Shown here one piece after another: positions 2,898 through 24,252 of a DNA stretch of 64,000 bases. The notes under the pieces are model-generated. The model did not search any database, had not been told where the DNA came from, and saw only the letters and a program-made list of their open reading frames with translations. Numbering within the stretch: position 1 is the stretch's first letter; the number at the start of each line of letters is the position of its first letter. A program made the position numbers and the translations under genes. The stretch comes from Pseudoruegeria sp. HB172150. Lineage in GTDB: Bacteria > Pseudomonadota > Alphaproteobacteria > Rhodobacterales > Rhodobacteraceae. Location of the stretch: contig NZ_JAATNG010000002.1 in assembly GCF_013184805.1 (NCBI RefSeq), positions 248,001-312,000 of the forward strand. Reading direction: 5' to 3'.

Positions 2898-3899
2898 ATG
2901 ACGATGAAGAAAGTGTCGATGTCGATGACCGGAGCAGCTGTTCTGGTGGCCGCCGTCGCTGTGCTGTCGTTCTGGGTGGCGCCATCACGGGCGGATACCG
3001 CCTGGCTTGAGGCCCGGATCGCCAACCCGAAGCTGCGCTGTCGCGCGTCCGACCGGTTCACGATCATAGTACATGGCGGCGCCTTCTGGGGTGATCCGCC
3101 TGGCACGACGCGCAGAACGGTCCTGCGCGATGTCGCCGTGCAAGCCGCCCGTTGGCTCGACGGAGGCGCACCCGCGCTCGCCGTGGTGGAGGAAGCCGTC
3201 GCAATGCTCGAGGACTCGGGTGCGTTCAACGCGGGCAAGGGCGCGAACGCCAACGCGAAAGGTGTCGTCGAACTCGATGCCGGCATCATGGATGGTCGCA
3301 CCCGCCGTGCCGGGGCAGTCGCGGCGGTCCGGAGCTTGAAGAATCCGGTGCGTGCCGCACGGCTGGTGATGACATGGACGCCGCATGTAATGCTTTCCGG
3401 GGTATCGGCGGACGAAGCCCTGTCCGAGCTCGGCGCAGAGACAGTTGATACAGGCTATTTCGAACGCACCGGTAACGGTGAGGCCTTCGAAGAGAAGGGG
3501 ACGGTCGGCGCTGTGGCGCTGGACCGCTGCGGTGATCTTGCTGCCGCGACCTCCACCGGCGGGTTCGGGGCAAAGTTGCCCGGCCGTATCGGCGACAGCC
3601 CAATCCCCGGCGCCGGATTATTTGCCGAGAACGGGCTGGTGGCGATTGCGGCCACCGGGCATGGCGAAAGCTTTCTGCAGACGGTACTGTCACACGAGGT
3701 AGCGGCGCGAATGCGCTACGGCGGTGAAACACTGGACGCCGCTGTGCGGGGCGCAATCCTCGAGACGCTCGCTTCGGTCGGAGGCGAGGGTGGGCTCGTC
3801 GCCGTGGATGCAGCCGGGAACGCCGTATCGCTCTTCAATTCGGATGGAATGCTGAGCGAAATGATGAGCAGTGCTTCTTTGACGGACCCCGATAAATAG
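2898..3899 (+). CDS. Exported isoaspartyl peptidase / plant-type L-asparaginase
   Basis: This 333-residue protein belongs to the N-terminal nucleophile hydrolases that cut isoaspartyl dipeptides and asparagine. The sequence VHGGAF opens the domain, and GTVGAVALD places the catalytic Thr at residue 202, where such precursors self-cleave into two chains; the STGG substrate loop follows. A hydrophobic N-terminal segment ending in SRA suggests export to the periplasm, which is less usual for the family. I chose the ATG at 2898 (MTMKK) because upstream in-frame residues look non-coding; an ATG six bases later is equally possible. It stands alone between the micro-genes and the dehydrogenase. Confidence 0.85.
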   Translation: MTMKKVSMSMTGAAVLVAAVAVLSFWVAPSRADTAWLEARIANPKLRCRASDRFTIIVHGGAFWGDPPGTTRRTVLRDVAVQAARWLDGGAPALAVVEEAVAMLEDSGAFNAGKGANANAKGVVELDAGIMDGRTRRAGAVAAVRSLKNPVRAARLVMTWTPHVMLSGVSADEALSELGAETVDTGYFERTGNGEAFEEKGTVGAVALDRCGDLAAATSTGGFGAKLPGRIGDSPIPGAGLFAENGLVAIAATGHGESFLQTVLSHEVAARMRYGGETLDAAVRGAILETLASVGGEGGLVAVDAAGNAVSLFNSDGMLSEMMSSASLTDPDK

Positions 3900-3936: not shown

Positions 3937-3965
3937 TTGACTTACATCCGCCCCTTCGGTATCGC
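3937..3965 (+). promoter_or_regulatory. Promoter of the leader peptide / dehydrogenase unit
   Basis: TTGACT (3937-3942) and TATCGC (3960-3965) are 17 bases apart. Seven bases past the -10 box falls on the A of the leader ATG at 3972, so the transcript would be leaderless. The -10 box is weak. Confidence 0.45.
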
Positions 3966-3971
3966 CACCCC

Positions 3972-4022
3972 ATGACGACTGCATCGCATCACGCCGGGAT
4001 CTATTACGCGCCGCTCTCATAG
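3972..4022 (+). CDS. Putative 16-residue leader peptide with tandem Tyr codons
   Basis: The small frame reads MTTASHHAGIYYAPLS and ends at TAG. Two adjacent Tyr codons (4002-4007) lie just before the first arm of a hairpin, and the stop codon sits in its loop-arm junction, as expected for ribosome-mediated attenuation. There is no Shine-Dalgarno sequence, but the predicted transcript begins at or next to the ATG. Leaderless trpL in Sinorhizobium is a precedent for this layout. The adjacent His-His pair could be incidental. The gene it would control makes a tyrosine-pathway enzyme. Confidence 0.5.
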   Translation: MTTASHHAGIYYAPLS

Positions 4023-4071
4023 CGGCGGATGCTCAGTCTTTGTTCAACCGCTGCATCGCCAGCGGTTTTTT
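4009..4071 (+). promoter_or_regulatory. Four-segment transcription attenuator ahead of the prephenate dehydrogenase
   Basis: Segment 1 (CGCCGCT, 4009-4015) pairs perfectly with segment 2 (AGCGGCG, 4021-4027). Segment 3 (AACCGCTG, 4046-4053) pairs perfectly with segment 4 (CAGCGGTT, 4060-4067), and T residues run to 4071, making an intrinsic terminator 43 bases before the gene. AGCGG of segment 2 can instead pair with CCGCT of segment 3, giving an antiterminator. This is the classical attenuator arrangement. The alternative is that the second hairpin simply terminates the peptidase transcript. Confidence 0.55.
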
Positions 4072-4080
4072 CATGGGATG

Positions 4081-4106
4081 CCTCTGGCGCTGCGCCACTA
4101 CAGAGG
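4081..4106 (+). promoter_or_regulatory. Hairpin masking the dehydrogenase ribosome site
   Basis: CCTCTG (4081-4086) can pair with CAGAGG (4101-4106), which contains the AGAGG ribosome site for the ATG at 4114. A competing inner GGCG/CGCC stem is also possible. This suggests an extra translational control level. Confidence 0.4.
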
Positions 4107-4113
4107 TCACCCC

Positions 4114-4893
4114 ATGCGGAACGGCACGGAACCCACGAAAAATACAGTCGGCATCGTCGGCTTCGGCGCCTTCGGGCAGTTGATGGCGCGGGAATTGCGG
4201 CGCTATGTGCCGTTGTGCGCATACGACCCCGATCCGGGGTTGGCGGCGGTGGCGGATCGGTTGGGTGTGGAACTGACCGACCTCGCGCAGGTCGCGCGCT
4301 GCCACATGGTCGTCCTGGCTGTGCCGGTAGCCAAGCTGGCTGAAACGGTGGCGGCCATCGCCCCGCATTTCCGGCCCGGCGCTTTGGTGCTCGATGTGGG
4401 CTCGGTCAAGGTGAAGCCCGCCGAGATCATGCGGCGCGGCCTGCCTGATCACGTCGATATCGTTGCGACGCATCCGCTCTTCGGCCCGCAAAGCGCCGCG
4501 AACGGTGTCGCCGGGCTGAAGATTGCGCTTTGCCCTGTGCGCGGGCGGCGGCACCTGCGGCTGGCCGCGTTCCTGCGCCGGGCGCTTGGGCTGCGGGTAA
4601 TCATCACCACGCCCGAGGCGCATGACCGGGAAGCCGCCACCGTGCAGGGCCTGACCCACCTGATCGCGAAGGTGCTGGTGCGGATGGAACCGCTGCCAGG
4701 CGAGATGACGACCCTCAGCTACGACCGCCTGATCGAGGCCGTGGATATGGTGCGCCACGACGCGCCGGGGGTCTTCGAGGCAATCGAGCGCGACAATCCC
4801 TTTGCGGACGATGTACGGCGGCAGTTCTTTGGGCTGCTGGCGGAGCTGGATGCCGAAATGTCCGCCCGCGCCATGGCCTGTGCGGCGGAATAA
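4114..4893 (+). CDS. Prephenate/arogenate dehydrogenase family protein
   Basis: The 259-residue protein opens with a Rossmann NAD(P)-binding loop GIVGFGAFGQ and carries the family signatures DVGSVK and HPLFGP, followed by a helical C-terminal dimerisation domain. It would oxidise prephenate or arogenate in tyrosine synthesis. It is shorter than fused TyrA enzymes and has no chorismate mutase or ACT domain. The start at 4114 is chosen because AGAGG lies seven bases upstream; an in-frame ATG at 4078 lacks a ribosome site. The upstream leader and terminator suggest tyrosine-dependent attenuation. Substrate preference is not decidable from sequence. Confidence 0.85.
   Translation: MRNGTEPTKNTVGIVGFGAFGQLMARELRRYVPLCAYDPDPGLAAVADRLGVELTDLAQVARCHMVVLAVPVAKLAETVAAIAPHFRPGALVLDVGSVKVKPAEIMRRGLPDHVDIVATHPLFGPQSAANGVAGLKIALCPVRGRRHLRLAAFLRRALGLRVIITTPEAHDREAATVQGLTHLIAKVLVRMEPLPGEMTTLSYDRLIEAVDMVRHDAPGVFEAIERDNPFADDVRRQFFGLLAELDAEMSARAMACAAE

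Positions 4894-24176: not shown

Positions 24177-24252
<76 letters not shown>

Follow-up and report, generated by a model that had tools for sequence, protein, structure and literature searches.

A short open reading frame with two adjacent tyrosine codons lies ahead of a second TyrA gene in Pseudoruegeria sp. HB172150, and comparison with related bacteria points to a tyrosine-responsive, ribosome-mediated attenuator that probably controls this accessory TyrA. The element recurs, conserved, before such a spare gene of tyrosine synthesis in various alphaproteobacteria, where it would probably turn the gene on when tyrosine is short. The arrangement is best read as tyrosine sensing by a stalled ribosome. 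We located the element in a window of 64,000 nucleotides (the whole stretch of DNA that was analysed), where it comprises the following features.

3937–3942, + strand: −35 element TTGACT; TTGAC lies 34–37 nt 5′ of the leader ATG in 36/36 leaders
3960–3965, + strand: TATCGC, a weak −10-like sequence in a region that is variable among relatives
3972–4022, + strand: leader ORF MTTASHHAGIYYAPLS followed by a stop, 16 codons; its AUG is the predicted transcript start, making the leader putatively leaderless
4002–4007, + strand: TAT TAC, two adjacent Tyr codons proposed as the sensor; YY in 34/36 leaders
4009–4027, + strand: hairpin 1:2, CGCCGCT (4009–4015) with AGCGGCG (4021–4027), overlapping the stop codon at 4020–4022
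4023–4053, + strand: alternative helix 2:3, CGGCGG (4023–4028) with CCGCTG (4048–4053), conserved without covariation
4046–4067, + strand: hairpin 3:4, an 8-bp stem of AACCGCTG (4046–4053) and CAGCGGTT (4060–4067)
4066–4071, + strand: T6 tract that makes 3:4 terminator-like; U tract in 2/36 leaders
4057–4089, + strand: alternative helix 4:5, CGCCAG (4057–4062) with CTGGCG (4084–4089), exclusive with 3:4 and 5:6
4072–4116, + strand: hairpin 5:6, enclosing the AUG with its ribosome-binding site; CATGGG (4072–4077) with CCCATG (4111–4116) and GCCTCTG (4080–4086) with CAGAGGT (4101–4107)
4102–4106, + strand: Shine–Dalgarno-like AGAGG inside 5:6, 7 nt 5′ of the ATG at 4114
4114–4893, + strand: second TyrA (PF02153), 259 aa, plant-type, predicted arogenate dehydrogenase

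In the window, the ATG at 3972 lies 35 nt past TTGAC, the TAG stop at 4020–4022 falls inside hairpin 1:2, and AGCGG at 4021–4025 is complementary to CCGCT at 4048–4052. A preliminary description of this DNA had named the TTGACT/TATCGC promoter, the ATG, the Tyr codons, the stop within 1:2, the 3:4 stem with its T run and the AGCGG/CCGCT pair, all of which we found in place; it had also called the −10 box weak, and TATCGC at 3960–3965 was indeed missing from the output of a consensus promoter scanner run on the window. A terminator scan of the window returned two overlapping sites against 1.0 expected (s.d. 1.0). The fold of 3972–4080 was no better than those of shuffled sequences (z = −0.69; 44/200 as good), and the fold from just past the Tyr codons to the gene start gave z = −2.7 (1:2, −2.0; 3:4, −4.4; 5:6, −2.4). 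Because the 3972–4080 fold is ordinary and the promoter weak, the window by itself is unconvincing and the case depends on relatives. A T-box or another known Rfam element was rejected, since no curated family matched: at gathering score there was none in the leader region (MicF alone appeared, at E 4.3) and none at the leader in the loci of 14 relatives. Elsewhere in the window, a tRNA gene at 24177–24249 is its only Rfam match at gathering score.

We searched for the dehydrogenase gene at E 1e-40 and found it in 25/394 genomes of the family (the own genome included) and in 11/385 genomes of the class, with an overlap of three between the two sets. A named collection gave 25 loci with the gene; we used its 12 alphaproteobacterial loci, L019–L028 lying outside the comparison, and three Saccharibacteria loci that we inspected had no leader. 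The leader precedes 36 of the 45 gene copies compared (the window's and those of 44 alphaproteobacterial relatives) and is absent from eight (L014, L039 and L057–L062); one locus, L052, is cut by a contig end and has its leader on another contig, adjoining the 5′ end of the gene. The 36 leaders are 15–21 codons long, have their stop in hairpin 1:2 and are followed by hairpin 3:4. Adjacent Tyr codons occur in 34 of them, 10–11 codons past the start (15 in one leader) and 5–6 codons before the stop, the exceptions being L048 (YR) and L050 (YF), and the residue following YY is P or A in most. The pair is spelled TATTAC in 16 leaders, TATTAT in 16, TACTAC in one and TACTAT in one. Since the Tyr pair is retained in 34/36 leaders through synonymous codons, we conclude that the element is real; alignment of the relatives' upstream regions, the check proposed at the outset, thus found the Tyr codons conserved. 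Histidine sensing by the His-His pair in the window's peptide was ruled out, as HH is absent from all other leader peptides compared.

Leaders were sought with a script that required TTGAC 25–45 nt 5′ of an in-frame start and, given several candidates, took the start nearest 36 nt, so the spacing counts hold partly by construction. Among the 34 script-found leaders, 22 had a single candidate, and in all 22 the distance from TTGAC to ATG was 34–37 nt, though 25–45 nt was allowed. From this spacing we infer leaderless translation of a transcript whose first base is the A of the leader AUG or a base next to it. Carriers of the leader include Ruegeria pomeroyi and Chelatococcus asaccharovorans.

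A covariance model trained on 31 of the 36 leaders matched 24/394 family genomes at E 1e-5, always directly before the second-TyrA gene, that is, 24 of the 25 family genomes with the gene (the exception being G054) and 0/369 without it. Twenty-one of the 24 belong to the training set and three (G359, G110 and G374) lie outside it; model searches of more than 40 genomes ran with stricter filters and may overlook weak cases. Within the own genome, the leader scored 101.3 bits; the other 13 matches scored at most 22.9, and the best five, on inspection, showed no leader. The 385 class genomes gave seven matches at E 1e-4, namely five known leaders, G605 (see below) and G751 (L138), a 32-bit match with no visible Tyr leader. 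Among plasmid loci, which lay outside model training, we examined 10 of 23 matches. Seven carry the leader, from Roseibium (two, near-identical, YYY), Methylobacterium, Paracoccus (three) and Haematobacter (YN); those from Thioclava, Bradyrhizobium and Phaeobacter do not. The Methylobacterium and Haematobacter leaders are near-copies of training leaders (95% like L056 and 93% like L051, respectively); the remaining five, of which four are distinct, are 69–81% like the nearest training leader. The Methylobacterium plasmid copy has no TTGAC at the expected distance. Six of the examined plasmid records with a leader have a gene table, and none of these tables, which are incomplete, lists the leader. 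On the Paracoccus sp. SMMA_5 plasmid pNSM5b (L131), genes for tyrosine breakdown are neighbours of the leader-linked dehydrogenase gene, with hmgA two genes away and fahA nearby.

Three hairpins recur in the leaders: 1:2 around the stop codon, then 3:4, and finally 5:6, which covers the dehydrogenase gene's ribosome-binding site or AUG. The distance from the leader stop to the chosen gene start is 92–112 nt. The leader alignment (A1) holds 31 of the 36 leaders, and near-copies were reduced to 20 cluster representatives for permutation tests. For these 20 the mean shuffle z was −2.71 for 1:2, −2.98 for 3:4, −1.44 for 5:6 (below −1 in 12/20) and −2.78 for the whole, against 0.04 for coding controls. 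In the permutation test, segments were swapped between species and we counted the permutations, out of 10,000, that reached the native pairing. We rely on the figures from 24 representatives, which were 1 for 1:2, 0 for 5:6 and 21 for 3/4:5, with controls at 2,617 and 6,201; pairing 2:3 was without covariation in this set (1,078). The 20 original representatives alone gave 1, 0, 54 and 2,259 for 1:2, 5:6, 3/4:5 and 2:3 (controls 4,196 and 6,772), and a 26-row run gave 0, 1, 5 and 761 (controls 5,353 and 5,663); relative to the latter, the 24-representative run limits the 3:4 search and drops L127 and L132, which are 95% and 93% identical to included leaders. Taken alone, the six added plasmid sequences did not place 5:6 above mismatches (8,487/10,000), and in two of the six 4:5 was taken for 3:4. 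RNAalifold on the leader alignment returned only five pairs, all in 3:4; the 5:6 region aligns poorly across subgroups.

Hairpins 1:2 and 3:4 are strong by shuffle z, and helix 2:3, which would exclude both, has a conserved GCGG/CCGC. The sequence of helix 4:5 varies with complementarity kept, from CGCCAG/CTGGCG in the window to GTGCCAG/CTGGCAC in L045 and GGTCAGCG/CGCTGGCC in L049. In other subgroups, the partner of segment 5 is the distal part of segment 3, as in GCCGCGAT/ATCGCGGC (L008) and CGCTGCC/GGCAGCG (L034). Comparison of the sequences thus establishes the leader with its Tyr codons, the three hairpins, and the complementarity of segment 5 to hairpin 3:4. The preliminary description had proposed a four-segment tyrosine attenuator in which 2:3 pairing prevents termination. 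A Tyr-Tyr leader with 1:2 and 3:4 ahead of TyrA, probably leaderless and sensing tyrosyl-tRNA, is supported by this comparison, and both stems are conserved in relatives, native 1:2 pairing beating mismatches (1/10,000); antitermination by 2:3 is plausible, its pairing depending on the conserved GCGG/CCGC without covariation (1,078/10,000). The four-segment architecture proved incomplete, since it overlooked the conserved hairpin over the start site and its alternative partner, and an intrinsic terminator did not hold up as the conserved output (2/36).

Two of the 36 leaders, the window's and L055, have at least five T among the 8 nt that follow the 3:4 stem; with the six plasmid sequences added the count is 3/42, L132 also having five T. 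The cysS attenuator of Rhodobacterales, by contrast, has a U run in all cases as PMC8632094 summarizes it, so an intrinsic terminator seems to be something additional in the window's copy and a few others. For the same reason we do not class the leader family as a terminator attenuator of the trp, his or phe type, although the window's copy may act so, and its 3:4 stem with T6 probably terminates transcription. The start site lies in a hairpin (5:6, reached by 0/10,000 permutations, 24 representatives), the arrangement looked for in an ermC-like element. In ermC-type translational attenuators, a stalled ribosome exposes a hidden ribosome-binding site; the stalled ribosome and hidden site would be shared here, ermC differing in having an antibiotic as its signal, a likeness drawn by description only.

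We modelled folding in 20 representatives with the RNA masked up to a ribosome either on the first Tyr codon (stalled) or on the stop codon. Stalled versus stop, the mean number of pairs was 5.82 versus 8.30 for 3:4, 2.59 versus 0.13 for 2:3, 4.00 versus 1.35 for 3/4:5 and 8.09 versus 10.37 for 5:6. Opening of the start site was 0.363 versus 0.348 (0.375 without a ribosome), rising in 5/20 and falling in 4/20. In the window's model, 3:4 went from 8.0 pairs to 0 on stalling and start-site opening was 0.25 versus 0.26; segment 4 of the stalled fold pairs beyond 5:6 and not with segment 5, and 5:6 persists. In stepwise folds before the Shine–Dalgarno sequence emerges, 3/4:5 was not favoured by stalling (higher in 7/20, lower in 10/20). 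The equilibrium and stepwise folds are thus weak and mixed, and the folding models back a relay of alternative helices only weakly; our confidence is accordingly good for the tyrosine sensor and lower for the relay.

The order of switching that we infer has a leaderless start, ribosome stalling and a response to tyrosine. With charged tRNA-Tyr plentiful, the ribosome would reach the stop codon and cover segment 2, letting 3:4 and 5:6 form; 5:6 would mask the ribosome-binding site or AUG and keep the dehydrogenase off, and in the window's copy 3:4 with T6 would additionally end transcription. With charged tRNA-Tyr scarce, the ribosome would stall at Tyr11/Tyr12 and cover segment 1, segment 2 would take segment 3, and segment 4, now free, would take segment 5 and release the start site. 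Such a six-segment relay would act mainly on translation, the terminator being an addition in the window's copy. The full account is a leaderless Tyr-Tyr switch (1:2, 3:4 and 5:6 off; 2:3 and 4:5 on) with translation initiation as its output, mostly terminator-free and serving spare tyrosine genes. In Rhodobacterales and Hyphomicrobiales the spare would be an additional arogenate dehydrogenase gene, and in at least one alphaproteobacterium outside these orders it would be an additional gene for tyrosyl-tRNA synthetase. We put this account forward tentatively, as a possible reading of the whole.

Other explanations divide on what 5:6 and the U tract mean. Plain transcription attenuation would make 3:4 an intrinsic terminator, 2:3 its antiterminator and 5:6 incidental. 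The window offers it an 8-bp stem with T6 and a model in which the stalled ribosome removes 3:4, and the cysS uORFC-8-2 attenuators of Rhodobacterales work in this way according to their authors, in the account given in PMC8632094. As the explanation for the family it is doubtful, however: only 2/36 leaders have at least five T in the 8 nt past the stem, whereas the cysS consensus described there always has a U run, and the native 5:6 pairing beats mismatches (0/10,000). The 34/36 leaders without a U tract and a start site paired in the folds would also suit Rho-dependent or coupling control, with the leader ribosome and 5:6 deciding translation and Rho ending untranslated transcripts, which we consider unlikely.

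The two remaining alternatives concern the leader itself. If the nascent peptide caused arrest, the conserved YYP/YYA..L. end, up to the stop, would stall the ribosome itself, with tyrosine or another ligand as co-signal, and a P or A does follow YY in most leaders. Yet the codons after YY overlap segment 1 of hairpin 1:2, which can account for the constraint, the residues preceding YY vary, and the second Tyr is changed in L048, L050 and L132, all of which leaves this explanation improbable. The idea that the hairpin is only the terminator of an upstream peptidase gene, with the ORF there by chance, takes its strength from a gene that ends at 3899, upstream of the element. Gene neighbours upstream of the leader differ among relatives, however, the window's being of the asparaginase family, and leader and hairpins recur before the same gene despite this; the model, moreover, found no other site in 394 family genomes at E 1e-5. 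Because the element keeps its place before the dehydrogenase gene whatever gene lies upstream, we do not regard it as an upstream-gene terminator, an outcome that the preliminary description had named as fatal to its proposal and that now seems hardly credible.

The gene behind the leader had been described as a prephenate dehydrogenase; it is a TyrA gene, though a second, plant-type one predicted to use arogenate and not the housekeeping TyrA. Among solved structures, the closest to it is 'Prephenate dehydrogenase 1' of soybean (5t9f, E 5e-22). Two His residues of catalytic motifs are invariant in 44/44 rows of a protein tree. Asp216 aligns with residue 222 of the 5t9f chain and is Asp in 35/35 leader-linked proteins aligned. 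An acidic residue at position 222 accompanies arogenate use in plant and related bacterial TyrA, in the part of PMC5681985 that treats this position, and the protein has the acidic residue at plant TyrA 222 that marks clade I (plant-type) arogenate dehydrogenases. The gene product is probably an arogenate dehydrogenase isozyme beside a housekeeping TyrA. An in-frame ATG at 4078, inside 5:6, is unmatched by the starts chosen in relatives.

Another PF02153 gene scored over the cut-off in 26/26 leader-bearing genomes tested; genomes with a leaderless copy had another TyrA in 2/7 and none in 5/7, and these genomes are not independent, since most belong to one family. In the tree (44 rows), a branch with support 97/95 parts seven leaderless copies from a group made up of the 35 leader copies, L039 and the contig-cut L052. 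This topology suggests a single origin and a single loss. L035 was left out because of its frame of 58 aa; this locus (G129) has an intact leader and an internal stop codon in the dehydrogenase frame. L039 (G054) is a copy within the leader clade that has no visible upstream leader.

The class-wide match in G605 leads to a different gene. There an ORF (MTEMMHITAVYFARLP, then a stop) lies 36 nt past TTGACA and precedes tyrS. This leader, at 1465–1656 of L137 and in the same place in L169, stands before a second tyrosyl-tRNA synthetase gene and encodes a peptide ending ...VYFARLP. Its 3:4 stem is followed by a T-rich tail, and the GGAG preceding the ATG is covered by a 5:6 stem, GGTCTCC/GGAGACC. 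With one Tyr codon it joins the single-Tyr leaders L048 (YR), L050 (YF) and plasmid locus L132 (YN), and 3:4 is predicted in both its stalled and stop states. G605 is the only genome with two tyrS matches (E 1e-50) among 43 of its order. As a general target tyrS was rejected, the leader occurring in 1/60 screened tyrS loci (some genomes counted twice), the second copy of G605. As a control for the U tract we turned to trpE loci, where a tandem-Trp leader was found in 3/8 over the cut-off (L100, L102 and L106), too few to rely on. Within the 300 bases before trpE in L100 (G446) are a trpL ORF (MNTSSLLLSRRWWRPV, then a stop) after TTGACA and a T5 terminator-like hairpin. Downstream, a hairpin of GGTGGCGTC/GACGCCACC surrounds the GGAG preceding trpE; judging from L100, hairpins at the start site may be more widespread among attenuators of alphaproteobacteria.

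Leaderless ORFs that respond to Cys occur in mycobacteria; the leader described here would be like them a leaderless sensing ORF and differs in the amino acid, the two being set side by side by description only. A 2004 survey reportedly treated proteobacterial attenuators. To our knowledge, no tyrosine-specific attenuator has been described. Among the matches listed in the open-licence literature there was no tyrosine-responsive attenuator, and attenuators for other amino acids were present; the main text of a premature-terminator screen (PMC2965389), as available to a word search, has no occurrence of 'tyrosine'. The closest relative in design is the tryptophan attenuator trpL-trpE (rnTrpL) of Sinorhizobium meliloti, which PMC10117765, in its outline of the system, gives as leaderless with a 14-aa leader peptide. 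Both are alphaproteobacterial leader-peptide attenuators with an AUG at the transcript start (as we predict here), but that one pairs tryptophan with trpE where ours pairs tyrosine with a second TyrA; it also yields, on the same outline, a small RNA produced by termination, whereas a U tract is missing from most of the tyr leaders. The Rhodobacterales element uORFC-8-2 before cysS, in the entry given in PMC8632094, has two tandem Cys codons, two stems and a U run in all cases. It resembles our leader in being a short upstream ORF with two tandem codons and two stems, thought to be ribosome-mediated, and differs in its Cys codons, constant U run and aminoacyl-tRNA synthetase target; the same compilation has a Phe uORF before aroF in Acholeplasma. 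The aroR leader of Corynebacterium glutamicum likewise has a leader peptide with Tyr and Phe codons before an aromatic-pathway gene, but it reads Phe-Tyr-Phe, is insensitive to Tyr availability and precedes an operon that includes aroF, encoding DAHP synthase, as stated in the portion of PMC11802643 on this leader. Attenuation ahead of tyrA was itself predicted in a 2005 study, whose Table 7 has attenuators before tyrA operons, including hisHb > tyrA of Agrobacterium tumefaciens (PMC1173090). These are database predictions, mostly for operonic tyrA, and 'leader peptide' has no occurrence in the text as searched.

If true, the six-segment switch would be the first known attenuator specific for tyrosine. 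Conserved and without an Rfam match, the element marks a pathway enzyme present as a presumably regulated spare copy, and so yields a testable claim on why these bacteria keep two TyrA enzymes. With its start-site hairpin and rare U tract, the family would also allow transcriptional and translational outputs to be compared within one set of homologous leaders.
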